From positions 1-64,000 of the forward strand of contig JAKOYD010000037.1 in NCBI GenBank assembly GCA_029780695.1: a DNA stretch of 64,000 nt, given 5' to 3'. The notes below the pieces were generated by a model, which saw nothing but the letters and a program-made list of their open reading frames with translations, was not told the origin of the DNA and made no database searches. This document shows positions 30 to 57,273 of the stretch, in pieces; the first letter of the stretch is position 1; every line of letters begins with the position of its first letter. This DNA comes from Pseudomonadota bacterium (lineage in GTDB: Bacteria; Pseudomonadota; Gammaproteobacteria; Burkholderiales; Burkholderiaceae_C). The position numbers and the translations under genes were made by a program.

Positions 30-2070
30 CGGTGTGGGGCGGGGGCTGCCCCTCACCCCTGCCCTCTCCCCAGAGGGGCGAGGGAGTGGCATCGCGCACG
101 GTCAAAGCGATGCGCACCAGATCGTCATCGCTCAAGCCAAACAGCGGCGATTTCAGCGCCCGCGCCAGCGCCAGATCGTGCCCCGGCGACACCAGCGCAT
201 CGACCAGCGCCAGCACGTCCTGCACCGCGGGTTGCTCGCCCAGCAGTTGCTGCTCGGGCTGTTCGCAGGCGATGCCCAGTTGGCGCAATTCAGACTGCAA
301 CTCGCCCAACGGCAGGCGCTTGCGGGCCAGCACCATCAGGCGCTCGGGCGGCACGCCGGCGGCGATGCGGTGGGCGATCCAGCGGGCGGCCTGGCGGGAT
401 TCGAGGGTGCACAGGCTGTCTTCGAGCACCACGCGCGGGGTGGTCAGGCTGTCGCGCCACGCGGGCTCATCGCCCTCGTCGGTGGCGGCGCGATCAGGGC
501 GCGGGATGAGCGGCAGCGCGCCGATGTGGCCGCGCGCGGCGGATTCGGTGCTGTGCGCGCGATAGCCGCTGAACTCGTCGGCGGCCTGCGCTGCCAGCAT
601 CACTTCGTTGACGGCGCCCAGCACTTCGGGCGCGTTGCGGTGCGTGTGGTCGCAGGCCAGTCGGTCGCCGCCGAGCGCGTGCACGATGAAATCCTGCGCG
701 GCGATGAAGACCTGCGGGTCGGCGCGGCGAAAGCGGTAAATGCTTTGCTTGGGGTCGCCGACGATGAACACGCTGGGCGCGTCTTGCCCGCCCCCGGCGC
801 CCGCATAGGACGACAGCCACGCGTGCAGCGCCTGCCACTGCAGCGGGTTGGTGTCCTGAAACTCGTCGATGAGCAGGTGGCGAGTGCGCGCGTCCAGCCG
901 CTCTTGCACCCAGCCGCTCAAGAAGGGATCGGACAGCAGGGTGAGCGCGGCGCGCTCGACATCGCTCATGTCGACCCAGCCGCGCTCGCGTTTCAGCTCG
1001 GCAAACGATTCGATCAGCGGCCGCGTGAGGCGGGCCATGCGCTGGTGGTGTTGGCGCGCGGCGTGCTGGGCTTCAGCCGCCAATACGGCTTCGACCTCGT
1101 TTTGCGCGGCGCGGATGTCGTCGTGCGACTTGCCGAAGACGCGCGGCTTGCCGGCCTGGGTGAACAGCGCGGCGACCACGCCGCCCCAATCGCCCGCGTC
1201 GAGCGCCGCCAGCAGTTCGGCGCCCTTGGCGGCGTAGGTGCGGGCCATGGGGGCGAGCGCGCGGGCCGCGTCTTGCAGCAGGGCGCGGCCAGCGGCGCGT
1301 TGCAGTAACCATTCGGCGGGCTGGTCCACGCCGGCCAGGCACGGGTAAAGCACGTCGAACGGCGCCACGGCCTCATCGACGTGACCGGCCGCGTCGGCCA
1401 GCAGAAACTCCACGCGGCGGGCCAGCGCGCCTTCCAGCGCGGCGTGGGCGCGGTGGCGGCCCAGCGTGGCGACGAGCGCGGCGTAGTCGGCGCTTAAATG
1501 GGCATCGCCCGCCACGCGGCGCAGGTAGCGGCGCCAGACCTCGGCCACGGCGTCGGCATCGTCTTCGAGCAGCTCGTAGCTGGAGGGCAGCCCCAGTTGC
1601 TGCAACACCGACAGCGGCGCGCTGCGCAAGAGCGCGGCAAACCAGCTGTGGAAGGTGCGGATCTGCACCGGGCGGCCTTGGGCCAGCAGGGACTGGTATA
1701 AATTTTGTAGCTGCTCGCGCTGGCCTGGCAAGCGCTGGGGCTCGATTCCTCTTGCAATCAGCTCAGCGTCCAGGCGCGTTTGCCATTGCTCTGGTGTCTC
1801 GCCCGTGCGTGGCCGCGCGAAGTCGGCCAGCCACTGTTGCAGCCGCTCGCGCATCTCGCCGGCGGCCTTCTTGGTGAAGGTGATGGCGAGGATTTCTTGC
1901 GGCGCGGCGCCGTCGAGCAGCGCGCGCAGGATGCGCGAGACCAGCATCCACGTCTTGCCCGCGCCCGCGCAGGCCTCCACCGCCACGCTGCGGCGCGGGT
2001 CGCAAGCGATGGCGTAGAAGGCGGCGCGGCTGCAGGGGGCGCCGTTGTGTTCGTAGGCCGGATTGGTCAT
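1..2070 (-). CDS. addA: UvrD/RecB-type helicase-nuclease AddA-like, 3' end missing
   Basis: Superfamily I DNA helicase of the AddA/RecB group, expected to work with the AddB-like protein upstream in double-strand break resection. The minus-strand frame is open for all 690 codons from ATG at 2070 to the window edge. Visible motifs are Walker A ACAGAGKT (about residues 33-40), ITFTKKAAGEM, Walker B LLIDEFQDTN (D402, E403) and GDPKQSIYRFR near residue 438. The C-terminal helicase part and any nuclease domain lie outside the window. Two dispersed repeats are read in frame: residues about 111-125 (QREQLQNLY region) and the last readable part, where a palindromic repeat encodes a TPSPLWGEGRGEG-like stretch before the poly-G. 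Past that repeat the sequence may not be authentic. It lies 142 bases downstream of addB on the same strand, with a long hairpin repeat between them. Confidence 0.88.
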   Translation of the reverse strand, partial: MTNPAYEHNGAPCSRAAFYAIACDPRRSVAVEACAGAGKTWMLVSRILRALLDGAAPQEILAITFTKKAAGEMRERLQQWLADFARPRTGETPEQWQTRLDAELIARGIEPQRLPGQREQLQNLYQSLLAQGRPVQIRTFHSWFAALLRSAPLSVLQQLGLPSSYELLEDDADAVAEVWRRYLRRVAGDAHLSADYAALVATLGRHRAHAALEGALARRVEFLLADAAGHVDEAVAPFDVLYPCLAGVDQPAEWLLQRAAGRALLQDAARALAPMARTYAAKGAELLAALDAGDWGGVVAALFTQAGKPRVFGKSHDDIRAAQNEVEAVLAAEAQHAARQHHQRMARLTRPLIESFAELKRERGWVDMSDVERAALTLLSDPFLSGWVQERLDARTRHLLIDEFQDTNPLQWQALHAWLSSYAGAGGGQDAPSVFIVGDPKQSIYRFRRADPQVFIAAQDFIVHALGGDRLACDHTHRNAPEVLGAVNEVMLAAQAADEFSGYRAHSTESAARGHIGALPLIPRPDRAATDEGDEPAWRDSLTTPRVVLEDSLCTLESRQAARWIAHRIAAGVPPERLMVLARKRLPLGELQSELRQLGIACEQPEQQLLGEQPAVQDVLALVDALVSPGHDLALARALKSPLFGLSDDDLVRIALTVRDATPSPLWGEGRGEGQPPPHTAPPPPPPPPP
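49..86. repeat. Palindromic CCCTCACCCC/GAGGGG repeat inside addA
   Basis: An imperfect inverted repeat built of CCCCTCACCCC, CCCTCTCCCC and GAGGGGCGAGGG segments. It resembles a repeat dispersed in many beta- and gamma-proteobacterial genomes. Here it is in frame with addA and ends next to the poly-G, so it probably caused an assembly break. Confidence 0.6.
1697..1740. repeat. Dispersed repeat family A, in frame within addA
   Basis: Reads ATTTTGTAGCTGCTCGCGCT then GGCCTGGCAAGCGCTGG. It matches the other family A copies in the window: an AT-rich AGCTA part plus a GCGCT...AAGCGC hairpin. It encodes about residues 111-125 of AddA without breaking the frame. Confidence 0.65.
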
Positions 2071-2090
2071 TGGGCAGCCCCTCAAGACCC

Positions 2091-2200
2091 AACAGCCGGA
2101 CGCGAAGGGCGCGAAGGTTTCGCGAAGGACGCGAAGGGAAAACCAAAGATGTTTTTTTCGCGTCCTTCGCGAGCTTTTGCGTCCTTCGCGTCCGGCTGTT
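2091..2200. repeat. Hairpin repeat family B between addB and addA
   Basis: A 110-bp element with perfect 18-bp terminal arms AACAGCCGGACGCGAAGG (2091-2108) and its complement (2183-2200). The arms are made of repeated 9-base GGACGCGAA units, so the RNA would fold into a long hairpin. It lies in the gap between two co-directional genes. Two more copies are at 28735-28849 and 31202-31319. Confidence 0.85.
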
Positions 2201-2212
2201 TTGTATTCAGCA

Positions 2213-4753
2213 TCACCCTTGGCTCCAGAAATCCTTGCGGCACAAGCCCCGCGCATCGCACCAGTCGCACACGCTGCCTTCGCCGAGCGCGGGCAGCGGT
2301 TCGCCCACGGCAATTTGGGCCAGGTCGTGCGCCATACCTTCGTACAACTGCGCGGCCAATTCAGGCAGATCGGGCAATTCGTTCAGGCTGGGCGTTTCGC
2401 GTTCGGACAGGTTCAGGTAGGCAGCGCGCGGCGCGTCGGCGCCGGACAGCAGGGCGTAAAAGGGCAGTTGCGTGTCTTCGTTGCCGGCCTTGACGCGCTC
2501 GCGCGTGCGGGTGAGCGGCTCGGTCTTGTAGTCGATCAGCAGGGCGGCGCCGTCTTGCACGTCGTCGATGCGGTCGATCTGGCCTTTGAGCCGCAGCGGG
2601 CCGCGTTGGGTGTCGATGCTTTCTTCGGCCAGCTTGAAGCGCGCGCCGCTGGCCTCATGCTTGGCGAGCCATTGCAGATAGGCATCGCGCAGCGTGGGCC
2701 AAGCGACGGCAAAGGGCATGAATTCGCCCGGCTCCAGGCTGGGGCCGAGCCCCTCGGTGGCGGCTTCGGCGGCGGCGTCGATCAAGGCCAGACGGTCGGC
2801 ATCGGGCGCATCGCGCAGTGCTTCGTGAAAGCCGCGCAGCGTGTCGTGCAGCCAGTTGCCCCAGTCGCGTTTGTCGATGTCCACGTCCAGCTCGCCCTCT
2901 TCCGCCAGCCCCAACTGGCGCAGCGCGAAGAAGCGGTAAGGGCAGGCGCGCAGCATCTCGTAGCCGCTGGCCGACAGCGGCTGCGTGGGCAGCGCGTCAC
3001 CGCGGGGCTGCGGACGCTGGGTGGGGTGAATTTGAATGAAACGGGCCGCTCGCGCTTCTGTACCAAGCGCGGCCAGCTCCTGAAGTTGTAGCGACTGCAC
3101 CAGGGGCGAGGGCAGCAGCGGCTCGCCGTTGTCGTCGGCGTGGCGCCACAGCACATCCACCTGCGGCACGCGCAGCGCCAGCGCCCAGGCGGCGGCCTGC
3201 GCCTCGCGCAAGTCCTCGCGCGTGGGCAGGCGCAGGGCCTGGCGCTGCGCGGCGCTCCACGGGCCGGGCGGCTCGGGCGCGGCGGGCAGACGCTGCTCAT
3301 CGGCGCCGGGCAGCACCAGCGCAGCAAAGGGCCGGCCGAGCAACTGGGCCATGGGCAGCACCACGACCTGCGCGTCGGCCGGGTGCGGCGGGCGGAAGCT
3401 GGCGGCTTCCAGCGCATCGCCCACCCAGCGGGTGAATTCGGCCAGGCCCATGCGGCGCTGCGCGACGGGCCAGTCGCGCCAGTCGGCCAGCGCTTCATCG
3501 TTCAGCCCCAGGGCGTCGATGACGGCGTTGCCGGCGACGTCGGCCACCAGCAGCGGCCACAGGCCGCAGCCTTGCAGCAGCGTGCGCAGGGCGGCCAGCC
3601 AGTCGGCCAGCGGGCGCGCGGCGCTCATCGGCGCGCGCAGCGCTTCGATCTGCTGCGTGAGCGCTTGGTCGGCCGTGAGCAGCGCCGCCTGCGGCCAGCC
3701 GCGCACGGCATCGCGGCGCAGGCGGCGCTCCAGCCCGCGCTGCGGCTGCGCATCAAACGCGGGGGCGACCTTGAGCCAATCGAGCACCTCGTCGGTGGAC
3801 GCGCGCGGCGCCGAGGCGCGCAGCGCCGCCATCAGCTGCGCGGCGGCGTGGGTGGTGGAGAGCTTCCAGCCTGTTTCGTCACGCAAGGCCTCGCCCGCGC
3901 GCACGCCACGTTCGGCCAGCAGCGCATTGACGCGGCGCGTCAGCACGCGGTCGCCGGCGACCAGCGCCACCGGCACGCGGCCGGCGTCGATGTGGCGCAG
4001 CACGCAGGCGGCGGCGCGCTCGGCCTCGTCCTCGGCATCGGCGCAGGCGTGCAGGGCGATGTGGCCGGGGGGCGTGTCGGACTGCACGTTCAGCAGCACG
4101 GCCTTTTCAAAATAGTGCTCGGCCAGCGTTTCGGTCAGCGGATCGGGCAGCAGGCCGGGCACGATGAGCAGCGCATCGAGCGCGTCGACCACGCGCGGGG
4201 CGAACAGCACGTCGGTGGCGTAGTCCGAGTTGCCCGCCCAGGCGATGGCGATGCGGCCCACGGCGGCTTCGAGCGCCAGCGGGCCATCACCCACCGGCGG
4301 CAGCGCGGCGCGTGCCTGCTCGGCCCAGTCGGGGCGCAGCGCGGGCGGCAGGCTGGCAGCGATCTGGCCCAGCTGCGTGGCCTGTTCGACCAGCGGGCCG
4401 GCCAGCAGCGCGCGCTGCGCCGCCAGGCCCGCGCCGTCCAGCAACACGGCGGCGGTGAGCAGATCGCGCCCGTGGTCGAAGGTTAGGTCGTGCGGACCGG
4501 GCGCGAACCAGCCGACGCGTGCCGCCCAGTTGCGCGTGGTCTCGAAGCGCGGCGCAAAGCCGTCGGGACACTGCGCCGCCCACAGGCGCGCGGCCAGCGG
4601 CATCAGCTGCGCGTAGGGCAGCAGCACCACGCTGCGCGCGGGGTGCGCGGCCAGCGCGCGCAATTGGGCATTGACCCGCGCCAGCAAGTCGCGCCAGCCG
4701 CGCGTGACCCCGTCCAGCGGGGCGGGTGGCAAGGTTTCAGCTATCGTGGCCAT
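2213..4753 (-). CDS. addB: PD-(D/E)XK nuclease, AddB-like
   Basis: Predicted 846-aa nuclease subunit of an AddAB-type recombination complex acting on double-strand DNA ends. The C-terminal third has the PD-(D/E)XK nuclease core, with QIDRIDD and LLIDYKTEPL followed by QLPFYALL. It also has the spaced cysteines of an iron-sulfur nuclease: ACPYRFF before the nuclease core and VCDWCDARGLC at the end. The N-terminal part is a weakly conserved, degenerate helicase-like region. The ATG at 4753 was chosen; an in-frame TTG at 4780 would add nine residues. Residues about 554-573 are encoded by a dispersed family A repeat. addA follows on the same strand, and trxA is divergent with a 104-base gap. Confidence 0.85.
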   Translation of the reverse strand: MATIAETLPPAPLDGVTRGWRDLLARVNAQLRALAAHPARSVVLLPYAQLMPLAARLWAAQCPDGFAPRFETTRNWAARVGWFAPGPHDLTFDHGRDLLTAAVLLDGAGLAAQRALLAGPLVEQATQLGQIAASLPPALRPDWAEQARAALPPVGDGPLALEAAVGRIAIAWAGNSDYATDVLFAPRVVDALDALLIVPGLLPDPLTETLAEHYFEKAVLLNVQSDTPPGHIALHACADAEDEAERAAACVLRHIDAGRVPVALVAGDRVLTRRVNALLAERGVRAGEALRDETGWKLSTTHAAAQLMAALRASAPRASTDEVLDWLKVAPAFDAQPQRGLERRLRRDAVRGWPQAALLTADQALTQQIEALRAPMSAARPLADWLAALRTLLQGCGLWPLLVADVAGNAVIDALGLNDEALADWRDWPVAQRRMGLAEFTRWVGDALEAASFRPPHPADAQVVVLPMAQLLGRPFAALVLPGADEQRLPAAPEPPGPWSAAQRQALRLPTREDLREAQAAAWALALRVPQVDVLWRHADDNGEPLLPSPLVQSLQLQELAALGTEARAARFIQIHPTQRPQPRGDALPTQPLSASGYEMLRACPYRFFALRQLGLAEEGELDVDIDKRDWGNWLHDTLRGFHEALRDAPDADRLALIDAAAEAATEGLGPSLEPGEFMPFAVAWPTLRDAYLQWLAKHEASGARFKLAEESIDTQRGPLRLKGQIDRIDDVQDGAALLIDYKTEPLTRTRERVKAGNEDTQLPFYALLSGADAPRAAYLNLSERETPSLNELPDLPELAAQLYEGMAHDLAQIAVGEPLPALGEGSVCDWCDARGLCRKDFWSQG
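3034..3092. repeat. Dispersed repeat family A, in frame within addB
   Basis: Contains GCTCGCGCTTCTGTACCAAGCGC followed, on the plus strand, by CCAGCTCCTGAAGTTGTAGC, in the family A layout: GCGCTTG-like stem, then an AGCT/GTAGC AT-richer flank. It is divergent from the other copies, and encodes about 20 residues of AddB. Confidence 0.5.
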
Positions 4754-4857
4754 AGCGTTTGCGAGTCGCCGCCGTGGCAATGAGGAAAAGGCGTTTCTGT
4801 CACAATCATCGTCACTTTATCCTTACAGCGCCCGCGTGTTGCCGGGCCTTACCCACC

Positions 4858-7285: not shown

Positions 7286-9004
7286 TTGAGCACGCCCAGC
7301 CCCGCCATCGTCACGCAGGACGCGGTCCGGCGCCTGCCGCGCTGGGCGCTGCTGCTGCTGTGCGCGGCCTATGTCATTCCGGGTTACGTGGGGCGCGAGC
7401 CGTGGAAGAACGCGGACATTGCCAGCTTCGGCTACATGCTGGCGCTGCTGGATGCAGGCCACTGGCACCACTGGCTCAGTCCGACCCTGATGGGCATGGT
7501 GCCCGAAAGCAGCGCCCTGCTGCCCTATTGGCTGGGGGTTTGGGCAATGCAGTTGCTTACGCCACTGGGCGTGGCGCCCGACTTCGCCGCCCGCGTGCCG
7601 TTTGTGCTGATGTTGGCCGGCATGCTGACGGCCACCTGGTACGCGGTCTACCACTTGGCGCGCCACCCCGGCGCGCAGCCGGTGGCGTTTGCCTTTGGGG
7701 GCGAAGCCGAGCCGCGTGACTACGCGCGCGCGCTGGCCGACGGCGGACTGCTGGCGCTGATTGCCACGCTGGGGCTGGCGCAGTTCTCGCACGAGACCAC
7801 GCCGGCCCTGGCGCAGTTGTTCTTCGGTACGTTGGTGTTCTACGGGCTGGCGGCGCTGCCCACGCGTGCGCTGGCCTCGTCGCTCGCGCTGCTGGCGGGC
7901 CTGCCGGGTCTGACGCTGTCGGGCGCGCCGGCCACGGCGCTGATCTACGCCAGCCTCAGCCTGCTGGCGCTGGCGTTGCCCGGACGCGCCCCCTTGCGCG
8001 CAGCGGCACGCCGGCGCGGCTTGGGGGTGCTGCTGGCACTGATTGCGCTCTGCCTGGGGCTGTCGCTGAGCTTGTCGCTGCTGCGCTGGGACATCGCGCC
8101 GTGGCGCAGCAGCTGGACGGACTGGCGCGGGCTGGTCAAGATGGCGCTGTGGTTCACGTGGCCGGCCTGGCCGCTGGCGCTGTGGACGCTGTGGCGCTGG
8201 CGCCGCCAGTTGCTGGACGTGCGCGATCAGCGCCACCTGGGCCTGCCGCTGCTGATCGCCGGCGTACCGTTGATGACTACCGTGGCCACGCTGGCCGGCG
8301 ACCGCGCGCTGTTGCTGGCGCTGCCGGCATTGGCGGCGCTGGCGGCGCTGGCGCTGCCCACCTTCAGCCGCAGCGCGTCGTCGCTGATCGACTGGTTCAC
8401 CGTGCTGTTCTTCACCGGCTGGGCGCTGGTGATCTGGGTCGTGTGGGTGGCCATGCAGACGGGCGTGCCCGCCAAGCCGGCGGCCAACGTGGCGCGGCTG
8501 GCGCCGGGTTTCGAGCCGGTGTGGCAGTGGCCGGCCTTTTTGGCTGCGGCGGCCGCCACGCTGGCCTGGATTGGGCTGGCCCGCTGGCGCACCGGGCGCC
8601 ATCGCACCGCGCTGTGGAAGAGCCTGGTGCTGCCGGCCGCTGGCGCCGCGTTGTGCTGGCTGTTGCTGATGACGCTGTGGCTGCCGGCGCTGGACTACGC
8701 CCGCAGCTTTGCGCCGCAGATGCGCGAGATCCGCGCGCTGGTGGGCGACGCGCCCTGCGTGCAGGTGCACGGGTTGGGCGCGCCGCAGGTGGCGGCGGTG
8801 CGCTTTCATGGCCGCTGGCTGCCCGTGCCGGCGCGCGGGCCGGGGCAATGCCCTTGGCTGTTGGTCGACGTCGACGCCCAGTCCAGCCTGCCGGCCACGG
8901 TAAACCTGACCGACTGGCAGTTGCAAGCACGCGTGCGCCGCCCCACCGACGACAATGAAAGCCTGATGGTGTTCCGCCGCACCGCGCCCGCTGCCAGGCC
9001 ATGA
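7286..9004 (+). CDS. GT39/ArnT-like integral membrane protein
   Basis: A polytopic membrane protein of about 570 residues with some ten or more hydrophobic segments and a C-terminal periplasmic-type tail. The first loop, GREPWKNADIASFGYML, resembles the acidic first loop of family 39 glycosyltransferases (ArnT/PMT type), which use lipid-linked sugars. That gives a class, not a substrate. The TTG at 7286 is chosen because the longer reading from GTG 7205 starts inside the rpmE2 terminator; the true start is uncertain. A MATE exporter follows 114 bases later on the same strand, after a repeat. Confidence 0.7.
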   Translation: MSTPSPAIVTQDAVRRLPRWALLLLCAAYVIPGYVGREPWKNADIASFGYMLALLDAGHWHHWLSPTLMGMVPESSALLPYWLGVWAMQLLTPLGVAPDFAARVPFVLMLAGMLTATWYAVYHLARHPGAQPVAFAFGGEAEPRDYARALADGGLLALIATLGLAQFSHETTPALAQLFFGTLVFYGLAALPTRALASSLALLAGLPGLTLSGAPATALIYASLSLLALALPGRAPLRAAARRRGLGVLLALIALCLGLSLSLSLLRWDIAPWRSSWTDWRGLVKMALWFTWPAWPLALWTLWRWRRQLLDVRDQRHLGLPLLIAGVPLMTTVATLAGDRALLLALPALAALAALALPTFSRSASSLIDWFTVLFFTGWALVIWVVWVAMQTGVPAKPAANVARLAPGFEPVWQWPAFLAAAAATLAWIGLARWRTGRHRTALWKSLVLPAAGAALCWLLLMTLWLPALDYARSFAPQMREIRALVGDAPCVQVHGLGAPQVAAVRFHGRWLPVPARGPGQCPWLLVDVDAQSSLPATVNLTDWQLQARVRRPTDDNESLMVFRRTAPAARP

Positions 9005-9060: not shown

Positions 9061-9097
9061 TTAGCTATATTTTCAATAGCTATCTGCGAAGCAGGGA
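9061..9097. repeat. Dispersed repeat family A (partial)
   Basis: TTAGCTATATTTTCAATAGC followed by TATCTGCGAAGCAGG. It shows the AT-rich AGCTAT core of family A with a degenerate GC stem, between two co-directional genes. Confidence 0.55.
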
Positions 9098-18887: not shown

Positions 18888-18908
18888 ACCTGGATTCTTG
18901 AAGAAAAA

Positions 18909-18965
18909 AGCGCGCCAGCGCTTGCTCACACTGCACTTACAGCTATCAATAATATAGCTAAAGCG
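18909..18965. repeat. Dispersed repeat family A
   Basis: GCGCGCCAGCGCTTGCTCAC, a short spacer, then CAGCTATCAATAATATAGC. A typical copy between convergent ppx and the phosphatase gene; it reaches into the phosphatase stop codon. Confidence 0.7.
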
Positions 18966-19722
18966 AGGCAGGCATGGGGCGCGTCAAATACAGCTCGGCC
19001 AGCCGCGCGCGCTGCGGCGCGCGCACACCCAGTTGTCCCGTCAGGTAGGCGTCGATGCCGCCAAAGTCGTGTTCCACGGCCTGCAGCGCGGCGTCCAGAA
19101 AGTCCGCCTGCACGCGCCACAGCACGTTCAGCACGTCGCGCGGCGCGCGTGCCTCGGGCAACGCGGGCATGCGGTAGTAGTCGTTGGTCAGCAGGTAGTC
19201 TTGCATCACCACGTCGCGCGGCACGCCCAGCGCCAGCAGGATCAGCGCGGCGGCAAAGCCGGTGCGGTCCTTGCCCGCCGTGCAGTGAAACACCAGCGGC
19301 GCGTCGCTGTCGACCAGGTGCTCGAACAACTGGGCAAACGCCGCCGCGTTGTCGTGCACGAAGGCGCGGTAGGTCTGCTGCATCAGCCCCACGGCCTGCG
19401 CGGGCGTCACGGTCTGGCCGGCGTCCAGCAGGTCTTTCATGCGTTGCACCACGGTGGGCTCGATGGGCAGCGCGTGCTGCCGCACGCCCGGCAAGTCGTA
19501 GGGCACGGCAGCGCGCTCGGACGTGCCGCGAAAGTCGACGACGCGCGTCACGCCCAAGGCCTGAAACACCGCGGCGTCATCGGCGGTCAGCGCGGCCAGG
19601 TGGTCGGAGCGGAACAGCCGGCGCCAGCGCACGGGCTGCCCGTGCGCGCCGGCGTAGCCGCCCAGGTCGCGAAAATTGCTGGCGCCGCTGAGGCGCAGGG
19701 AGCGTTCAGGGTGCTGGGTCAT
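18958..19722 (-). CDS. Tyrosine-protein phosphatase (dual-specificity type)
   Basis: A 254-aa cytoplasmic phosphatase of the Y_phosphatase3 type. It begins with the family motif LSGASNFRDLGGY and carries the P-loop HCTAGKDRTG (catalytic Cys and Arg) in VFHCTAGKDRTGFAAALILLALG-like context. No signal peptide is visible. ATG 19722 was chosen over an in-frame TTG at 19734. Its natural substrate is unknown; the next gene upstream on the same strand is a GT39 membrane enzyme. Confidence 0.88.
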   Translation of the reverse strand: MTQHPERSLRLSGASNFRDLGGYAGAHGQPVRWRRLFRSDHLAALTADDAAVFQALGVTRVVDFRGTSERAAVPYDLPGVRQHALPIEPTVVQRMKDLLDAGQTVTPAQAVGLMQQTYRAFVHDNAAAFAQLFEHLVDSDAPLVFHCTAGKDRTGFAAALILLALGVPRDVVMQDYLLTNDYYRMPALPEARAPRDVLNVLWRVQADFLDAALQAVEHDFGGIDAYLTGQLGVRAPQRARLAELYLTRPMPASL

Positions 19723-26643: not shown

Positions 26644-27672
26644 TCAGCCGGGCGGGGCGCCGAAATCTTCGGTGTCGACTTCGCGCCGGGCCTGTTCGGC
26701 ATAGCGGTGGCCGCTGACGGTGCGCTGGTTGATCAGCGCGTCCAGCCGCGCCAGCAGGGCACTGTCGAGCGCGACGTCGGCGGCGGCGAAGTTCTCGATG
26801 GCGTGCGCGAGCGAGCGCGTGCCCGGAATCGGCAGCACGTCGGCGCCCTGGTGCAGCAGCCAGGCGAGCGCCAGCTGCGCGGGCGTGCAGCCGGCTTCGT
26901 CGGCCAGTTGACGGTACGACGCCAGCAGCGGCAGGTTGCGCGCGTGATGATCGGGCGCAAAGCGCGGCATCGGGCGGCGGATGTCCTTGTCGGGCAGGGC
27001 CTCGACCGCCGCCACATCAGGCAACGCGCCGGCCAGAAAGCCGCGCCCCAGCGGGCTGAAGGCGACAAAGCTCACGCCCAGGTCGCGGCAGGCCTGCAGC
27101 ACGGCGATTTCGGGGTTGCGCGTCCACAGCGAATATTCGGTCTGCAGCGCAGCAATGGGGTGCACCGCGTGCGCCCGGCGCAGCGTGGCCGCGGACACTT
27201 CGGACAGGCCGATGGTGCGGATCTTGCCCGCGCGCACCAGATCGGACAGCGCGCCCACGCTGTCTTCGATAGGCACCTGCTTGTCCCAGCGGTGCAGGTA
27301 GCACAGGTCGATCACGTCGGTCTTCAGGCGCCGCAGCGAGCCTTCGCAGGTCGCGCGCAGCGACTCGGGCCGCCCGTTGATCACGCGGCCGGGCTTCACG
27401 CTGCCATCGCCCGCCTCCACCGTCATGCCGCATTTGCTGGCCAGGGTGAAGCGGCTGCGCTGCGGACCCAGTACGCGGCCCACCAGCGATTCGCTGACAC
27501 CGAAGCCGTACAGCGCGGCGGTGTCGAAGTGCGTGCAGCCGGCATCGAGCGCGCCGCGCAGCACGCGCTCGGCCTCGTCGGCCGAAATGGGCGTGCCGTA
27601 GGCATGGCAGATGTTCATGCAGCCCAGGCCGATGGCGCCGACCTGGAACGGACCCAATGCGCGCTGTTTCAT
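26644..27672 (-). CDS. Aldo/keto reductase
   Basis: A 342-aa NADPH-dependent oxidoreductase of the Tas/YajO type. The catalytic tetrad is visible: Asp and Tyr in HFDTAALYGFGVSE, Lys in TLASKCG, and His in CYLHRWD; the cofactor loop IPGTRSLAHAIENF is near the C-terminus. The ATG at 27672 was chosen because the longer frame reads into a dispersed repeat. It is the last gene of the pmd operon strand, 57 bases after pmdC; a role in protocatechuate-related aldehyde reduction is possible but unproven. Confidence 0.88.
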   Translation of the reverse strand: MKQRALGPFQVGAIGLGCMNICHAYGTPISADEAERVLRGALDAGCTHFDTAALYGFGVSESLVGRVLGPQRSRFTLASKCGMTVEAGDGSVKPGRVINGRPESLRATCEGSLRRLKTDVIDLCYLHRWDKQVPIEDSVGALSDLVRAGKIRTIGLSEVSAATLRRAHAVHPIAALQTEYSLWTRNPEIAVLQACRDLGVSFVAFSPLGRGFLAGALPDVAAVEALPDKDIRRPMPRFAPDHHARNLPLLASYRQLADEAGCTPAQLALAWLLHQGADVLPIPGTRSLAHAIENFAAADVALDSALLARLDALINQRTVSGHRYAEQARREVDTEDFGAPPG

Positions 27673-27691
27673 GGTTTCAATGGCAAATCGG

Positions 27692-27737
27692 CCGCTGGCG
27701 CTTGCAGGACAAGCGCATTCAGCTATCATTTATGCAG
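27692..27737. repeat. Dispersed repeat family A
   Basis: CCGCTGGCGCTTGCAGGAC AAGCGCATTCAGCTATCATTT: near-complete copy with GCGCTTG/CAAGCGC stem. It overlaps the pmdC stop codon and lies just before the reductase start. Confidence 0.8.
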
Positions 27738-28701
27738 CATTCAGCTGCTGCTCCAGGTCGTGCAGCACCTGGTAGCAGGCCAGCACCTGTGCCACGCTGC
27801 TGTTGGGTTCGCGGCCTTCGCGGATGGCGGCAAAGAACTCGCGGTCCTGCAGCTCGATGCCGTTCATCGACACATCGACCTTGCTCACATCGACCACCGT
27901 CTCCGGACCCTTGGCGTGCGTCTGCACCAGGTCGTCGTAGCGGGCGATGTAGGTCGCCGTGTCGCCGATGTAGCGAAAGAAGGTGCCCAGCGGGCCGTCG
28001 TTGTTGAAGCTGAGGGACAGCGTGCAGATGGCGCCGTTGGCGGCCTGCAGCTGGATGCTCATGTCCATGGCGATGCCCAGGTCCTTGTGGATCGGCCCCT
28101 GCACGGCGTTGGCCTTGACGATGGGCGAGCCGCACTGGTAGGCGAACAGGTCCACCGTGTGCGCGGCATGGTGCCACAGCAGGTGGTCGGTCCACGAGCG
28201 CGGCTGGCCCAGCGCGTTCATGTTGGTGCGGCGGAAGAAGTAGGTCTGCACATCCATCTGCTGGATGTTGAACTCGCCCCGCAGGATGCGGTTGTGCACG
28301 TACTGGTGGCTGGGGTTGAAGCGGCGCGTGTGGCCGCACATGGCGACCAAGCCGGTCTTCTTTTGCAGGTCGACGACGGCCTGCGCGCCGGCCAGCGAAT
28401 CGGCCAGCGGAATCTCGACCTGCACGTGCTTGCCGGCCTGCAGGCACTGCATCGTCTGCTCGGCGTGCATCTGCGTGGGCGTGCAGAGGATGACGGCGTC
28501 GACGTCGGGCCGCGCCAGGCTGTCGGCCAGGTCGGTGGTGACGTGGCCGATGCCGTACTGGTTGGCCACTTCCTGCGTCTTGCCCAGGTCGCGGCTGATC
28601 AGCGAGACGACTTTGACGCCGTCGATGTTCTGGATGCCGTCCAGGTGCTTGATGCCGAAGGCGCCGGCACCGGCCAGCGCGACGTTGATGGGTTGGGTCA
28701 T
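27730..28701 (-). CDS. pmdC: 4-carboxy-2-hydroxymuconate-6-semialdehyde dehydrogenase (LigC/PmdC)
   Basis: A 323-aa Gfo/Idh/MocA-family NADP dehydrogenase that oxidises the protocatechuate ring-cleavage product to 2-pyrone-4,6-dicarboxylate. The N-terminal Rossmann motif is GAGAFGIKHLDG; the Gfo/Idh signature is VQVEIPLADS (the usual EKP replaced by EIP, as in LigC); the GHTRRFNPSHQYVH segment is typical of LigC. ATG 28701 fits the family. A 154-base gap with a hairpin repeat separates it from pmdAB upstream. Confidence 0.93.
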   Translation of the reverse strand: MTQPINVALAGAGAFGIKHLDGIQNIDGVKVVSLISRDLGKTQEVANQYGIGHVTTDLADSLARPDVDAVILCTPTQMHAEQTMQCLQAGKHVQVEIPLADSLAGAQAVVDLQKKTGLVAMCGHTRRFNPSHQYVHNRILRGEFNIQQMDVQTYFFRRTNMNALGQPRSWTDHLLWHHAAHTVDLFAYQCGSPIVKANAVQGPIHKDLGIAMDMSIQLQAANGAICTLSLSFNNDGPLGTFFRYIGDTATYIARYDDLVQTHAKGPETVVDVSKVDVSMNGIELQDREFFAAIREGREPNSSVAQVLACYQVLHDLEQQLNAA

Positions 28702-28734
28702 GGTGTTCCTTGTCGAGATGGAAAGGCTGCAATC

Positions 28735-28849
28735 AACAGCCGGACGCGAAGGACGCAAAAGTGACGCGAAGGACGCGAAAGAAAACCAAAAATTCTTGGC
28801 TGCCCCTTTTGCGTCCTTCGCGAATCCTTCGCGTCCTTCGCGTCCGGCA
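28735..28849. repeat. Hairpin repeat family B between pmdAB and pmdC
   Basis: AACAGCCGGACGCGAAGGAC at the left and CCTTCGCGTCCGGC at the right, with more GGACGCGAA units inside each arm. It occupies almost the whole gap between the two genes. Confidence 0.85.
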
Positions 28850-28855
28850 TTTCTC

Positions 28856-31176
<2,321 letters not shown>

Positions 31177-31201
31177 GATGTTTGGATGTAGATGCCGAAT
31201 A

Positions 31202-31319
31202 CCGGACGCGAAGAACGCGAAGGATTCGCGAAGGACGCAAAAAAAGGAACAGCCAAAAATTTTTTGGTTTTCTTTTGCGTCCTTCGCGTCACTTTTGCGC
31301 CCTTCGCGTCCGGCTGTTC
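31202..31319. repeat. Hairpin repeat family B between pmdF and pmdD
   Basis: CCGGACGCGAAGAACGCGAA on the left and GCGCCCTTCGCGTCCGG CTGTT on the right, with A-rich then T-rich centre. It fills the gap between the two genes. Confidence 0.85.
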
Positions 31320-31321
31320 AA

Positions 31322-32014
31322 TCAGTCGATGTAGCGCAGCCCCGCCTTGGCCAGCGGCTCGCGCATCTTGTAATAGTCCAGCCCCAGCGTGCCCGAGGCG
31401 AACTCGGCGCGCTTGGCGCCTTCGTTGGCTTCGCGCGCGGTGGCGGCTTGCAGCGTTTTCTCGGCGATGGCACGCGGCACGCAGACCACGCCGTCGTCGT
31501 CGGCCACGATCACGTCGCCGGGGTGCACGATCTGGCCCGCACACACCACGGGAATGTTGACGCTGCCCAGTGTGGCCTTGATGCAGCCCTTTGAGCTGAT
31601 GGACTTGCTCCAGACCGGGAACTGGATCTCGTGCTGCAGCATGCGCACGTCGCGCACGCCGGCGTCGATGACCAGCGCGCGCGCACCGCGCGCCTTGAAG
31701 CTGGTGGCCAGCAGGTCGCCAAAGTAGCCGTCGGTGCACTCTGACGTGACGCCGGCCACCACGATGTCGCCCGGGCGGATCTGCTCGGCCGCCACGTGCA
31801 GCATCCAGTTGTCGCCGGGTTGCAGCAACACGGTGACGGCGGTGCCGCTGACCGGCGCGCCCGAATAAATCGGCCGCATGTAGGGCTTGAGCAGGCCGAC
31901 GCGGCCCATCGCCTCGTGCACGGTGGCGCTGCCGAAGGCGGCCAAGGCGTCGGCGGTGGCCGCATCGGCGCGCTGGATGTTGCGGTAAACGACTCCGAGT
32001 TCGTACATGCTCAT
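31322..32014 (-). CDS. pmdF: 4-carboxy-4-hydroxy-2-oxoadipate aldolase (LigK/PmdF)
   Basis: A 230-aa RraA-like class II aldolase that splits 4-carboxy-4-hydroxy-2-oxoadipate into pyruvate and oxaloacetate, and may decarboxylate oxaloacetate. Family motifs are [42 protein letters not shown] (substrate Arg and metal Asp) and [11 protein letters not shown]. The ATG at 32014 overlaps the pmdE stop (ATGA); MYELG at 32008 is an alternative start. Confidence 0.94.
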
Positions 32015-44517: not shown

Positions 44518-44567
44518 CATGGGTGTTTGCGAGATCAGCAGCGCTATAGGGTAAGTTGAACGCAGAC

Positions 44568-44663
44568 TTCACCGCAGAGGCGCAGAGATCGCAGAGGATT
44601 CGCAGACAAAGAACCACAAGAACCCTCTGCGAAGCGCTGCGTTCTCTGCGCCTCTGCGGTGAA
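44568..44663. repeat. Hairpin repeat with perfect 21-bp arms
   Basis: Arms at 44568-44588 and 44643-44663 are exact reverse complements, beginning TTCACCGCAGAGGCGCAG. The interior repeats CGCAGAG units, in the same style as family B but with a different unit. It lies in the 344-base gene-free gap between rpoH and the Bug gene; the rest of that gap holds the rpoH terminator and a family A repeat, and nothing else is visible. Confidence 0.85.
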
Positions 44664-44699
44664 TGGGCTTCTGTGAATCCGCCACAGCGGACAGATTAG

Positions 44700-44757
44700 C
44701 CCCTGGCGCTTGCCCATCAAGCACGAGCAGCTATCAAAACAAAAGCAAACAGCAGGC
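44700..44757. repeat. Dispersed repeat family A (near-complete)
   Basis: CCCCTGGCGCTTGCCCATCA then AGCACGAGCAGCTATCAAAAC. The best-preserved copy: GCGCTTG stem, spacer, AGCAGCTATCAAAA. Confidence 0.85.
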
Positions 44758-45798: not shown

Positions 45799-45855
45799 CG
45801 CTTGCTATCTATTTAGAAGCTATCTGCGCTTGCCTGGCAAGCGCTGGGCGCTTAT
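45799..45855. repeat. Dispersed repeat family A
   Basis: GCTATCTATTTAGAAGCTAT followed by CTGCGCTTGCCTGGCAAGCGCTGGGCGCTT-like stem in two parts. Lies between the convergent Bug and sco genes. Confidence 0.8.
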
Positions 45856-45892
45856 TTGAATCGGCACACAGGCGCGCCGCGCCCGCCCGCCG

Positions 45893-46510
45893 TCAAACGC
45901 CCTTGAGCAGCAGCCTGACGTCGTCCGCCATCGCCTCGGCCCCGCTGCCGTAGCGGCTGTACAGGCGCAGGCGGCCCTGCGGGTCGTAAACGTAGCTGGC
46001 GGCGGTGTGGTCCATGGTGTAGCTGGTGGGGGTCTTGCCGTCGACCTTCTTGTAGTAGACCTTGTAGTCCTTGGACAGCGCGGCCAGCGCCTCGGGCGAC
46101 GCGGCGTACAGGCCCAGAAAGCCGGGGTCGAAGCTGGCCATGTAGGCCTTCAGCACCTCGGGCGTGTCGCGCTCGGGGTCGATGCTGATGAACAGCACTT
46201 GCAGCTTGTCGCCCTCCGGCCCCAGCAGCTTCTTGACTTGCGCCATCTCGCCCATGGTGGTGGGGCAGACGTCGGGACATTGCGTGTAGCCGAAGAAGAC
46301 CACCACCACCTTGCCCTTGAAGTCGGCCAGGCTGCGCGGCTTTCCGTCGAAGTCGGTCAACTGAAAGCCCTGCGCGTAGTCGGCGCCAGTGATGTCGATG
46401 GCGCGAAACTGGGGTTTGTCGGGCTGGCAAGCGGTTAACAGGCCGCCAGCGCTTGTCAGAAAAGCGCCTCCAGCTATTAATTCAAGAGCGAATCGGCGGG
46501 ACAAAGTCAT
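45893..46510 (-). CDS. sco: SCO1/SenC copper chaperone for cytochrome oxidase
   Basis: A 205-aa membrane-anchored thioredoxin-fold protein that delivers copper to the CuA site of subunit II. The lipoprotein-type signal ends LLTAC (C28); the copper motif is CPDVC in [18 protein letters not shown], and the third ligand is the His of [18 protein letters not shown] 46510 overlaps the ctaB stop (ATGA). Residues about 9-22, the hydrophobic core of the signal, are encoded by a dispersed family A repeat. Last gene of the assembly cluster. Confidence 0.94.
46444..46485. repeat. Dispersed repeat family A encoding the Sco signal core
   Basis: GCCAGCGCTTGTCAGAAAAG then CGCCTCCAGCTATTAATTC. The family A layout is intact and in frame with sco. 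Confidence 0.65.
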
Positions 46511-47412
46511 ATCAGGTAATGATCGACCAGCAGCGCCGCAAACAGCAGCGACAGGTGGATCAGTGAAAAGCGGAAGGTTTTGCGCGCCTGCTGGTCTGAA
46601 TAGTGCCGCCACAGCTGGAAGGCGTGCCAGATGAAGCCGGCGTTGAGCACCACGGCCGCCACCAGGTACAGCCAGCCGCTCAGCCGGTAGATGAAGGGCA
46701 GCAGGCAGGCCGCCAGCAGGATGAAGGTGTAGAGCAGGATCTGCAGGCGCGTGAACTCGTTGCCGTGCGTCACCGGCAGCATGGGCAGGCCGCTCTTGCG
46801 GTAGTCCTCGACGCGGTACAGCGCCAGCGCCCAGAAGTGCGGCGGCGTCCACAGGAAGATGATGAGGAACAGGATCAGCGGCTCGGGCCCGACCATGTCG
46901 GTCATGGCGGTCCAGCCCAGCACCGGCGGCATGGCGCCGCTGGCGCCGCCGATGACGATGTTCTGCGGCGTCAGCGGCTTGAGGATGACGGTGTAGATGA
47001 CCGCATAGCCGACGAAGGTGGCAAACGTCAGCCACATGGTGAGCGGGTTGACCCAGACGTACAGAATGGCCGAGCCGATGGCGCACAGCACCACCGAGAA
47101 CGCCAGCGCCTGTCGGTCGCTCAGCTCGCCACGCGCGGTGGGGCGCCACGCGGTGCGCTTCATCTTGGCGTCGATGGTTTTCTCGATCAGGCAGTTGAAG
47201 GCCGCCGCCGCGCCGGCCACCAGCCAGATGCCGGCGCTGGCAATCGCCATACGGCCCAACGCCGCGCCATTGGGCAGGCCGGGCACGGCCAGTACCATGC
47301 CGATGAGGGCGCAGAACACGATCAGTTGCACCACGCGCGGCTTGGTCAGCACGTAGTACTGACGCCAGACGGGCATGGCAGGCAAGGCGGTGGCGGGCGC
47401 GCTGGTGCTCAT
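46507..47412 (-). CDS. ctaB: Heme O synthase (protoheme IX farnesyltransferase)
   Basis: A 301-aa UbiA-family membrane prenyltransferase that adds farnesyl to heme B. About eight helices are predicted. The first Asp-rich motif is [20 protein letters not shown] (the N-x3-D-x3-M-x-RT pattern), and the second conserved region is [31 protein letters not shown] 47412 overlaps the ctaA stop and its own stop overlaps sco, so ctaA-ctaB-sco are probably co-translated. Confidence 0.95.
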
Positions 47413-48602
47413 GCTTTCAGGCCTGCAGCGCTTGCCGGTATTGCGTTGGCAGCTATGGTTTTTGCGTTTTCCTCGGTCGCCGCCCGACTGGCGCACAGCG
47501 CCCAGGCCAGCACGGTCATCAGGGCGGCCGCGCCGCCGGTGTGCAGCACGGCGGCCAGCAGCGGCCAGTCGAGCACCACGTTGGACAGGCCGGTGACGAG
47601 TTGCAGCGCTGCCAGCGCGATCAGCCAGCGCCGCTGCGGCGCCAGCCGCCCGGCCCGCTGCAATTGCCACGCCAGCACGCCCAGCGCCACGAACACGGCG
47701 TACGCGAACAGGCGGTGCGTGTAGTGAATGGCGGTGAGGGCGTGAAACTCCAGCTGCAAGCCGTCGGCCGACCGGCCCAGCGGGCGCCACAGCTCAAAGC
47801 CCTGCGCGAAGTCCATCTCGGGCCACCAGCTGCCCTGGCACATGGGGAAGGTGTTGCACACCAGCACGGCGTAGTTGGTGCTGACCCAGCCGCCAAGCGC
47901 GATCTGCACGGCGACCATCGCCGTGGTCAGCCACAGCAGCCCGCGCAGGCCGGCGCCCAGCGGCTGCCGCACCGCGCCGGCCGATTGGCGGTAGCTTTCG
48001 GCCTGCACCACCAGCAGCACCAGCAGCCCCACGCCGCCCAGCAGGTGCAGCGTGACGATGGCGGGAAACAGCTTCATGGTCACCGTCAGCGCGCCAAACG
48101 CGCCCTGGGCGCACACCCACAGCAGCGTGACGCTGGGCCACGCCGGGTGCACGATGAAGCCGCGCGGGCCGGTCCCGGCGCGCTGGCGCCGCCACAGCAC
48201 CCACGTCGCCACGGCCAGCACGACGATCAGCACGCCGACGCCGGTGGCCAGGTAGCGGTGAATCATCTCGACCCAGGCCTTGCCGTGCGTGACCGGGCCG
48301 GTCGGCATGGCGGCCTGCGCGGCGGCGATGTGGTCGCGCGCGCCGACCGGGCTGGCCTTGCCGTAGCAACCGGGCCAGTCGGGGCAGCCCAGGCCGGAAT
48401 CGGTGAGCCGCGTGAAGGCGCCAAACAGCACCAGGTCGAAGGTGAGAAACAGCGTCAGCAGCGTCAGCGCCTGCAGTCGGCGCGCGGGGCCGGCGCCGGA
48501 GTGGCGCAGCCACAGCCAGGCCAGCGGGCCGGCGGCCACCATCAGGCCCATGCCCATCAGGCGCAGCGCCGGGCTCAGGTCGTACAGCGAGGTCGCGTCC
48601 AT
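47409..48602 (-). CDS. ctaA: Heme A synthase CtaA
   Basis: A 397-aa membrane oxygenase that converts heme O to heme A. Eight helices are predicted; heme-ligand histidines appear in [37 protein letters not shown] and [11 protein letters not shown], and the cysteine loop [10 protein letters not shown] is present. The last about 20 residues ([17 protein letters not shown]) are encoded by a dispersed family A repeat and are not part of the family core. Overlaps ctaB by four bases. Confidence 0.95.
47418..47470. repeat. Dispersed repeat family A forming the CtaA C-terminus
   Basis: CCTGCAGCGCTTGCCGGTAT then TGCGTTGGCAGCTATGGTTT. It is in frame and supplies the C-terminal tail of CtaA. Confidence 0.65.
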
Positions 48603-51344: not shown

Positions 51345-51364
51345 CTTCACTTCACTCCTGTGCT

Positions 51365-51410
51365 CTTGAATTCGTAGCTGTTCGCGCTTGTATCAAACCT
51401 GTCAACGCCG
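51365..51410. repeat. Dispersed repeat family A (degenerate)
   Basis: TTGAATTCGTAGCTGTTCGC then GCTTGTATCAAACCTGTC, between DUF2970 and ctaE; may overlap the ctaE leader. Confidence 0.5.
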
Positions 51411-52285: not shown

Positions 52286-52300
52286 CGCCACCGGCTCCCT

Positions 52301-52411: not shown

Positions 52412-52438
52412 CGTGGTCGTCACTGGCGGCATGGTCGA

Positions 52439-54070: not shown

Positions 54071-54117
54071 GGAGGACTCTCCGGGGAAAACTCTGAAATT
54101 CGGGCTAACGGGTTCGA

Positions 54118-55746: not shown

Positions 55747-55761
55747 TGAATTCACTTCCGA

Positions 55762-56277
55762 TCAGCGCAGCGGGCCATGACCCGCGGCCTGCAAGGCCCT
55801 GCGCAGCTCCCCGGCCACCACCGGCCGAAATTCCGGCCGCACGTGCCGCCCCAGATCCACCCGCCGACCGTGCGCGGTGACCTGGATCAGGCCTTGCGCG
55901 CCGGTCGGTGGCGCGATACGGACGTGCGCGCAACCGAACTCCATCTTCTCCCGCCTGCCGGCGACTTCCCGCACCACGGTCAGCCGCCCGTCCTGCAGCG
56001 AAACCGTTTCGCCGTCGGCGGCGTGCCGCGCATAGACCAGAAAGGCCGCGCCCACCGCCAACAGTTCGAGTCCCGCGAAACCCAATACCAGCCTGGCGCC
56101 GATCATCCAGAAACCGACGCCGATGGCAAGGGAGACGCCGCAAAGCCCCAGGTACAACAGGCCCAACTGGCGCGGCGTGACACTGCAGTTGCGCCGCATT
56201 TGCCAAGCCAGTGCCTGCCCGCTGACGCGGGCCCACCGATAAGCCGAAGGTTCCTGCAAGGCGAATTGTCTCCCCAC
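55762..56277 (-). CDS. DUF2244 membrane protein
   Basis: A protein of about 171 aa with two adjacent helices (LGLLYLGLCGVSLAIGVGFW and GLELLAVGAAFLVYA) followed by a cytoplasmic beta-rich domain (FGCAHVRIAPPT). This DUF2244 family precedes ctaC in many alpha- and beta-proteobacteria. The start is uncertain: GTG 56277, TTG 56259 and ATG 56199 are in frame, and only the last is ATG. Function unknown. Confidence 0.78.
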   Translation of the reverse strand: MGRQFALQEPSAYRWARVSGQALAWQMRRNCSVTPRQLGLLYLGLCGVSLAIGVGFWMIGARLVLGFAGLELLAVGAAFLVYARHAADGETVSLQDGRLTVVREVAGRREKMEFGCAHVRIAPPTGAQGLIQVTAHGRRVDLGRHVRPEFRPVVAGELRRALQAAGHGPLR

Positions 56278-56349
56278 CTTGGCCGGGCAACACACCCAGC
56301 GCCTTAGAGGCGGCAGTGTACTCCAGTCGCCCCGGTGCTTTGACAAATC

Positions 56350-57273
56350 TCAAACAGAGGGCAAGTTCTTATTGCGCTGTCGCAAGGATGCCTTGAGGTC
56401 ATCCAGCGCGATGGCCGTTTCGCCCTGCACGGTGTGGCGCGGCGGCGCCTTGAGGGCGTGGCCATAGATGATCTCGAAGGTCAGCGCCAGGGGGCCATCG
56501 GGTGCCGGCGTGCGCAACTGCGCGGCCAGCGCGGCCTCCAGACGTTGGCGCCAGGCCGGCGTGCGCAGACCGCCGAAGCGCCCCGGATGCAGGTTGCGGC
56601 CCAGTTCGCGCAGTTCCTGCAGCAGTCGCGCAGGCGACGCAAAAGTGAGCGTAATGTGTTCCATGTCCATCACCGGCTCCGAAAAGCCGGCGGCGGCCAG
56701 CTGGTCGCCCCAGTCGTGCAGGTCGGTGAAGTCCTGCGCGGGCGGCGGCCAGCCGTGTTGGGCGTACAGCGGGCGCAGTTCCTTCAGCGTGTCCGGCCCC
56801 AGCGCCGAAAACATCACGAAGCCATCCACCGCCAGCGCGCGGTGCCAGTCGGCCATCAGCGATGTCGGGTCGGCGTGCTGGTGAATCAGCATGTTGGCCC
56901 ACACCATCTGCACCGACGCGGGCGGCGGCTGCGCCACGTCGGTCACGCGGGCGGGTGTGCGCCGCAGGCGCTGCCACCAGCCTTTTGCTTCTTTTTTTAT
57001 AGCTTCTTGCCCAATACCAGCGTGCGGCAGCACACGAAAGCATTCGGCATCCGGGTAATGCGCCGCCACCCGATCGTGGCCTTGCAGGCCGCCACGCACC
57101 GGCTCCCAGTCGGCCCAGCGCTGCACCGGCACGCGAATCACTGCCAGCCGCTCGGCCATGCGCCGCGCCACTTCCTCGTGCAGCCAGGGCGATGCCGTGC
57201 GCGTCCGCGTGGCCCAGCGTTGCGCCGCCACCGGGTCGATGGTGGGCGGTCGGTCGGTGGCAGGCCCGGACAT
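56350..57273 (-). CDS. BioC-like SAM-dependent methyltransferase
   Basis: A 307-aa cytoplasmic methyltransferase resembling malonyl-ACP O-methyltransferase BioC. Motifs: R-rich N-terminus, EVARRMAERLAVIRV, VQMVWANMLIHQHADPTSLMADWHRALAVDG and MFSALGPDTLKELRPLY. The usual BioC glycine motif I (G-x-G-x-G) is not evident, so SAM binding is degenerate or altered. Residues about 81-98 (GIGQEAIKKEAKGWW) are encoded by a family A repeat. Divergent from comF. Confidence 0.8.
   Translation of the reverse strand: MSGPATDRPPTIDPVAAQRWATRTRTASPWLHEEVARRMAERLAVIRVPVQRWADWEPVRGGLQGHDRVAAHYPDAECFRVLPHAGIGQEAIKKEAKGWWQRLRRTPARVTDVAQPPPASVQMVWANMLIHQHADPTSLMADWHRALAVDGFVMFSALGPDTLKELRPLYAQHGWPPPAQDFTDLHDWGDQLAAAGFSEPVMDMEHITLTFASPARLLQELRELGRNLHPGRFGGLRTPAWRQRLEAALAAQLRTPAPDGPLALTFEIIYGHALKAPPRHTVQGETAIALDDLKASLRQRNKNLPSV
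56981..57032. repeat. Dispersed repeat family A within the methyltransferase gene
   Basis: CTTTTGCTTCTTTTTTTATA then GCTTCTTGCCCAATACCAGC. A family A copy whose AT-rich side is intact; in frame. Confidence 0.6.

Follow-up and report, generated by a model that had tools for sequence, protein, structure and literature searches.

A palindromic motif kept in place across species of a probable Ottowia lineage, possibly as a DNA-uptake signal, is read in frame in unrelated proteins

In the repetitive extragenic palindromic (REP) systems linked to REP-associated tyrosine transposases (RAYT), short palindromic repeats show a preference for the 3' ends of genes. Rickettsia palindromic elements (RPE) are, according to passages of a review of miniature inverted-repeat transposable elements (MITE; PMC10969869), palindromic repeats read in frame inside unrelated proteins, and the interspersed repeat BRE is described, in parts of Hot 2011 (PMC3110155), from Acidovorax, Polaromonas, Delftia and Bordetella, with some copies inside genes, a length of about 90 bp, 69% GC in Bordetella and a tandem arrangement at some loci. 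DNA uptake sequences (DUS) of Neisseriaceae and uptake signal sequences (USS) of Pasteurellaceae, as portrayed in passages of Treangen 2008 (PMC2397512) and Frye 2013 (PMC3630211), occur as hundreds to thousands of conserved chromosomal copies on both strands, at permissive positions of genes and in spacers. Here we analyze a palindromic motif of about 65-75 bp found in the first 64,000 nucleotides (hereafter the window) of contig JAKOYD010000037.1 of assembly GCA_029780695.1, a genome that comprises 180 contigs, is 84% complete and most likely belongs to the genus Ottowia (G000; G-numbers denote the genomes compared). The motif is abundant and, both within genes and between them, occupies orthologous sites that several species share; in addA the sharing extends to several genera. 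We propose, with a probability of about 0.4, that recognition maintains it at hundreds of sites on the chromosome, the recogniser being the DNA-uptake machinery, and that the copies do not represent recent insertions.

The motif resembles DUS and USS in being greatly over-represented in the chromosome and in its maintenance where conserved genes tolerate it (addA, sco and pmdAB as well as other orthologous groups), and differs from them in its length, in its irregular spacing, in lacking a free core enriched in genes and in belonging to another bacterial order. Like RPE it is palindromic and occurs in frame in unrelated proteins, but it is shorter than about 150 bp, is length-neutral at the best sites of the window, has no near-identical copies and is read on either strand and in various frames, yielding varied peptides. 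Its GC content (0.488 in the relative G015 and 0.455 in G120, that is, 49% or 46%) separates it from BRE at 69%, the two being compared by description. Unlike REP sequences, it has many copies inside genes, and its arms do not covary. No description of the motif was found among the papers listed in searches of an open-access part of the literature; those listed for its core letters have titles on unrelated subjects.

The consensus can be approximated as TTGCTAT-N-AATTT-GATAGCTGCT-N-GCGCTTG-N5-CAAGCGC-TAGAGGCC-N-ATTT. Allowing up to two mismatches, the core GATAGCTGCTNGCGCTTG is matched 196 times in the host genome, against one match for the reversed pattern. The core count in G015 is 367, the reversed pattern giving none. 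With one mismatch it was found in 39 of 150 genomes of the family, at least five copies being present in 20 of them, and the reversed pattern appeared once each in six; these counts underestimate decayed copies. Bearers among the matches listed include Acidovorax, Simplicispira, Giesbergeria, Paenacidovorax, Extensimonas and Comamonas granuli. An nhmmer profile built from the first 30 copies fetched elsewhere in the host genome locates seven places in the window at E<1e-3, the best match in the reversed window having an E value of 0.54, and the proposal of a single repeat family, made in a sequence-only reading of the window, is thereby sustained. In an 800-kb sample of G015 the profile returned 182 matches (E<2e-3), which extrapolates to some 980 copies in the whole genome, and the reversed sample returned 10, each between 5 and 10 bits. 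About 90% of the sampled sequence is coding, yet 135 of the 182 copies are intergenic, 44 lie within genes (23 sense, 21 antisense) and 3 are partial. A further 400 kb, from G120, contained 56 matches at E<1e-3 and none when reversed (20 in genes, 36 intergenic or partial); gene calls in both samples were those of a simple codon-usage caller. When coding matches in the two relatives' samples were compared with 10 synonymous-codon shuffles each, 20 matches stood against 0-2 and 23 against 0-1, so far above the shuffles that protein sequence does not explain the match to the motif. Reading of the motif in frame at permissive spots of unrelated proteins (loop, linker, signal peptide or tail) goes far beyond chance.

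Within the window, the best coding copy is located in addA (2..2070, minus strand), a gene named in the sequence-only reading, cut by the contig end and matched in all 20 genus genomes searched; the copy, which we term addA site 1, spans 1692..1759 on the plus strand, antisense to the gene (E 3.4e-11). The adjacent addB-like frame (2213..4780, minus), named in the same reading and by its position beside addA, contains a sense copy at 3028..3078 (minus; E 5e-5), and the comparison of this gene across species is one of ortholog placement of copies, the same place being occupied in G170 and G152. The gene for a fused protocatechuate 4,5-dioxygenase alpha/beta protein (pmdAB; 28856..30223, minus; NCBIfam NF009912, E 9.2e-233, 773 bits, below the cut-off of 837) harbors an antisense copy in the PmdA-PmdB linker (29737..29778, plus; E 1.5e-6), where G157 scores 40.6 bits. 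In sco (45893..46510, minus; name from the sequence-only reading, orthologues by blastp), a sense copy at 46436..46494 (minus; E 4.7e-9) codes for the lipoprotein signal-peptide core. Two further copies appear to be weak or decayed and to be recognisable through relatives: one in the C-terminal tail of ctaA (gene 47409..48602, minus, likewise named in that reading and matched in 31 of 41 genomes; copy 47412..47477, minus; E 1.1), the same codons giving 1.7e-7 in G015 and 3.6e-5 in G166, and a half-matching one in a loop of a BioC-like methyltransferase (gene 56350..57273, minus; TIGR02072, 78.6 bits, below the cut-off of 185; copy 56985..57043, plus), which has no profile match in the window and whose codons in G015 match the motif at 33.4 bits (E 1.5e-7). 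The sequence-only reading had named all six genes as bearers without frameshift; addA, sco, pmdAB and, more weakly, addB are upheld on the window sequence itself (E 3e-11 to 5e-5), ctaA and the methyltransferase are not, and the absence of frameshifts holds insofar as the frames are open.

Three strong copies lie between genes. That at 27676..27745 (minus; E 1.3e-14), upstream of an aldo/keto-reductase-like gene named by eye, is probably intergenic: its part at 27692-27737 most likely is, because the frame 26644-27729 covers it solely through an unlikely early start and the G170 orthologue is called intergenic. Orthologous copies exist in G170 and G164 and, weakly, in G152. The copy at 44693..44752 (minus; E 1.3e-12) has orthologous copies in G015 and G170 and a weak one in G164, and that at 45825..45862 (plus; E 5.8e-7) has one in G170. 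To these can be added a weak copy at 51354..51397 (plus; E 0.045 at 51361-51391), which is matched at the orthologous position by a copy in G015 (33122) and is grouped with copies in G146, G159, G166 and G167, and another at 18893..18967 (minus; two pieces within 18897-18963, E 0.11 and 0.13), in a spacer in which copies of G015 and G170 are placed and near which a G159 copy lies. AGCTATC words at 9078 and 23959 are absent from the list of profile matches, and the about eight intergenic copies originally counted are reduced to between three and seven.

The evidence for maintenance in place comes from relatives. Seven of seven window copies of G000 have a counterpart in G170, and seven of the nine placeable G170 copies have one in G000. 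AddA was compared in 21 genus members and 18 species of other genera. The 23-residue segment under addA site 1 is of equal length in 38 of these 39 species, whether or not they bear the motif, the exception being motif-free G020 with 9 extra residues, and the codons of this site match the motif at 13.6 bits or more in 10 of the 21 genus members. While adjoining codons vary, CTA persists as the core codon in 13 of the 21 rows, in a genus that is GC-rich. An AddA orthologue was found in 18 of the 25 genomes of other genera searched (those without one being the bearers G120, G004, G128, G141 and G121 and the non-bearers G013 and G139). At AddA site 1 or site 2, each of the 8 with at least 24 core copies reaches 9 bits or more, and none of the 10 without a core copy exceeds 3.5 bits, limits that were chosen after the scores were known and with site 2 of G100 missing from the piece compared. 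So clean a split between bearers and non-bearers has a random chance of 2.3e-5, a value to be read with the shared ancestry of the genera, which are not independent. In some species addA bears copies at three positions.

A similar picture emerges for Sco and PmdAB. The signal-peptide motif of Sco scores at least 13.5 bits in 11 of 16 usable genus rows (the G156 row was excluded for its wrong frame and 28% identity); rows that match the motif are equal in length except for one with one codon more, and the length of the signal peptide differs by at most 3 codons throughout except in G157, where it is 5 codons shorter. The codon ATA is kept at the core in 9 of the 16 rows, adjoining codons varying, and a G120 protein with a start that is Sco-like by eye also bears a copy. 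Of 20 genus genomes searched, 12 match the PmdAB fusion along its entire length; the linker differs in length by at most 3 codons and scores at least 15 bits in 6 of 13 rows. On the other hand, the CtaA tail is length-variable, being 18 residues shorter in G164, and the methyltransferase is absent from the fetched stretch of G164, G167, G163 and G165. Outside the window, copies lie at residue 1092 of a UvrA frame in G015 and at residue 1093 of a frame in G120 that looks similar. The sequence-only reading had likened the window copies to the insertions of Rickettsia and had called for a search for empty sites in relatives. Once run, this search revealed no clean element-length empty site at any of the six window sites, the variable ctaA tail allowing either reading. 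Insertion is not supported for the best of these sites, since addA, sco and pmdAB are length-neutral to within a few codons. The case cautions against taking every repeat that is read in frame for an insertion.

Conservation is also uneven along the motif. Among 118 matches we identified 19 orthologous groups of 2-11 species, in which differences amount to 0.195 at informative columns, 0.461 at uninformative ones and 0.413 in the flanks, a comparison with a built-in bias, since it admits only sites at which both sequences scored. In species not used in picking the site (59 focal matches, 1954 overlapping species pairs) the values are 0.298 for informative and 0.438 for uninformative columns. 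Informative positions of the motif thus change more slowly between species than uninformative ones. The information per position is very uneven, and alike in coding (42) and intergenic (105) copies.

Among 181 G015 copies, one segmental duplicate having been dropped, the highest pairwise identity is 78%; with shuffled columns the maximum reaches 71-77%. Mutual information is restricted to neighbours within 3 bp, only 2 of 2415 farther pairs exceeding 0.13, which is inside the shuffle range. The hairpin arms reveal no covariation, observed pairing being about that expected and mutual information between arms at most 0.06, and one tract alternates between AAAA (23 copies), TTTT (60) and ATTT (56). 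Given this lack of near-identical unrelated pairs, the purely local linkage, the absence of arm covariation and the alternating tract, the copies look more like separate draws from a recognised double-stranded motif than like members of a transposon family or instances of an RNA structure. Base use differs between G015 and G120 at several positions (at +29, for instance, C reaches 0.91 in the former and 0.59 in the latter), a difference that may possibly constitute a dialect.

Our best guess is that a protein recognises the motif as a chromosomal signal, most likely for DNA uptake. In such a mechanism something in the cell would recognise the sequence of the 65-75 bp double-stranded motif, and the recogniser would be the type IV pilus DNA receptor of the uptake machinery. 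Motif-bearing DNA would be taken up preferentially from kin and then recombined, and this drive would make and repair copies wherever a protein or spacer tolerates them, much as for the DUS of Neisseria and the USS of Haemophilus. An uptake role would account for the residence of coding copies in loops, linkers, tails and signal peptides and would make transformation species-specific. Acidovorax temperans has been reported to be transformable by DNA of its own species alone, and selective DNA binding has been suggested in Verminephrobacter, no signal sequence being named in the passages concerned (Davidson 2014, PMC4212676). The genome of A. temperans DSM 7270 contains 148 matches to the core and none to its reverse, which together with this specificity favors an uptake signal. 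It can be postulated, somewhat more doubtfully than the proposal made at the outset, that the motif, about 70 bp long and endowed with spaced A/T tracts, is the uptake signal of a whole Comamonadaceae branch (Acidovorax, Ottowia, Simplicispira, Comamonas and kin), that it would explain the specificity of A. temperans and that it has shaped AddA, Sco, PmdAB and other proteins without inserting into their genes. To our knowledge, no uptake signal has been described outside the Neisseriaceae and Pasteurellaceae. If the motif is one, it would provide a third bacterial group in which to study kin-only uptake, with A. temperans as a named competent organism; if it is a recognition signal of any kind, conserved proteins of different genera would carry in their codons the imprint of a need at the DNA level, so that selection acting on DNA would have shaped protein sequence.

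Several observations weigh against this proposal. Known DUS and USS cores measure 9-12 bp and are spaced more regularly than chance, whereas the 9-mers of the present motif are not enriched on their own in genes outside profile matches (GATAGCTGC was seen 2 times against 1.6 expected in G015 and once against 1.9 in G120, and ATAGCTGCT once against 1.3 and 0 times against 1.5) and its copies are spaced no more regularly than chance: a first 400-kb sample had seemed regular (P 0.005), but the regularity was lost once 800 kb of G015 were analyzed (P 0.65, 0.69 and 0.42 for three window sizes). Because genes show no enrichment of a short core on its own, because spacing is irregular and because the uptake role is inferred, we do not class the motif as a DUS. 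The specificity of A. temperans could reflect a homology barrier to recombination, and ComEC, matched in all 34 genomes surveyed (18 bearers, 12 non-bearers and 4 of unknown copy number, with a fragmented match in G003 and G152), does not discriminate, being found in bearers and non-bearers alike. No excess of copies in DNA-maintenance genes was shown, the cases being too few: uvrA, dprA and an ada/alkA-like gene are among the 38 bearing genes scanned (of 42), and none so named is among the 20 controls scanned (of 30 drawn). In AddA, bearers are mostly closer to Ottowia (57-69% identity) than non-bearers (43-59%), the two overlapping at about 55-60% alone. In the comparison of species not used in picking the site, the flanks (0.324), which are in part conserved coding sequence, vary scarcely more than the informative columns do. 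The standard deviation of pairwise identity lies above that of column-shuffled copies (0.066 against 0.052 in G015, 0.072 against 0.052 in G120), and the maximum identities slightly exceed the shuffled range. The excess is much smaller in uninformative columns (0.098 against 0.092), and we read the extra spread as neighbour coupling together with unequal decay. Lastly, the loop lengths of GluQRS allow for insertion.

The main competing explanation holds that the motif is an old mobile palindromic element, of the REP/MITE or RPE type, that spread before these genera diverged, inserting for the most part into spacers and at times in frame into genes, and is now decaying or domesticated. We regard it as somewhat less likely than our proposal and as the foremost of the alternatives. 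It would fit the discreteness of the unit, free cores not being in excess in genes, and the predominance of intergenic copies in largely coding DNA, and some loops leave room for insertion. Among 20 species, 8 have the motif in GluQRS with a score of at least 23 bits; six motif-free species have a GluQRS loop shorter by 12-17 residues, and in two others it is shorter by 2 and 5 residues. The loop of TlyA is 8-11 residues shorter in three motif-free species and carries an unrelated longer insert in four, and PaaD, TlyA and CobU are each 17-23 residues longer than the respective profile. In-frame gain or loss of a copy is therefore possible in some genes. Copies there span about 22 residues, however, so that the length differences of GluQRS and TlyA do not equal one element, and G168 (for GluQRS) and G169 (for TlyA) are motif-free with loops no shorter than those of bearers, the latter loop being equal in length. 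The window copies lack a clean empty site, unrelated near-identical pairs and long-range linkage are missing, and conservation is position-specific instead of reflecting uniform decay. The search for a RAYT partner yielded a single Y1_Tnp transposase in the 84%-complete host genome, with no copy of the motif within its 3.3-kb locus and thus no linked RAYT.

Insertions of other repeats seem to be visible at this evolutionary distance, since the spacer holding the copy at 44693 is longer in G000 by 186 bases than in G170 and by 168 than in G015 and contains a different palindrome. This palindrome, of the GCAGAGG type (44562-44667), adjoins the copy and probably accounts for the extra length as an insertion in G000.

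Less likely again is a set of binding sites for an abundant chromosomal protein, such as a nucleoid organiser or a segregation or replication factor, unrelated to uptake. Maintenance in place and sequence constraint would fit such sites equally well, the alternating A- and T-tracts suggest shape recognition, and in co-directional spacers copies take no preferred orientation relative to genes (43 against 41). Against it, there is no candidate protein, and integration host factor (IHF) was rejected as one, its consensus being present in 2 of 181 copies on the tested strand and in none on the other. An RNA hairpin or transcription terminator at gene ends is very improbable, for although the palindrome GCGCTTG-N5-CAAGCGC, the bias of G015 intergenic copies towards convergent spacers (0.49 copies per spacer, with 0.29 in co-directional and 0.11 in divergent ones) and a stop codon as the nearest gene end in 93 of 128 copies would suit it, the paired arms do not covary, orientation relative to genes is absent, 44 of the 182 copies lie inside genes and an Rfam scan gave eight sub-threshold matches up to E 5, none of them at a motif copy.

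Some minor observations concern other copies and the remainder of the window. Two G015 genes contain two copies each, namely EarP (L286:10619-11803) and the gene of a 1259-residue protein (L278:6706-10485), and the last codons of a FosX-like gene of G015 (L271:2373-2819) are formed by a copy. Pairs of copies in opposite orientation within one spacer, resembling the paired uptake sequences of Neisseria, occur in G152 (stretch 7693-7793), L295:2142-2300 and L308:9771-9920. A stretch of G164 (L113, L114) has repeated TGAGCGTTGA units, one spacer included. The window also contains a second repeat family, of CGGACGCGAAGGACGCGAAGG palindromes of about 120 bp, with three intergenic copies (2087-2205, 28733-28854 and 31196-31324), and a G run at the contig end (1-29), probably an assembly artefact, that gives the broken addA frame an apparent polyproline end.

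Matches were also found on plasmids: of 1807 plasmid records with any match, 30 were listed, 3 of them from Comamonadaceae, and none of 10 phage records was, figures that have no denominator. An identical 46-base match is shared by 27 of the 30 listed plasmid records. Plasmid pCTX-M3 carries a full-length copy (L371:1495-1558; E 1.3e-11) inside a DUF1010 cassette gene, within a class 1 integron and between dfrA12 and aadA2, which hints that this cassette derives from a Comamonadaceae-type chromosome.

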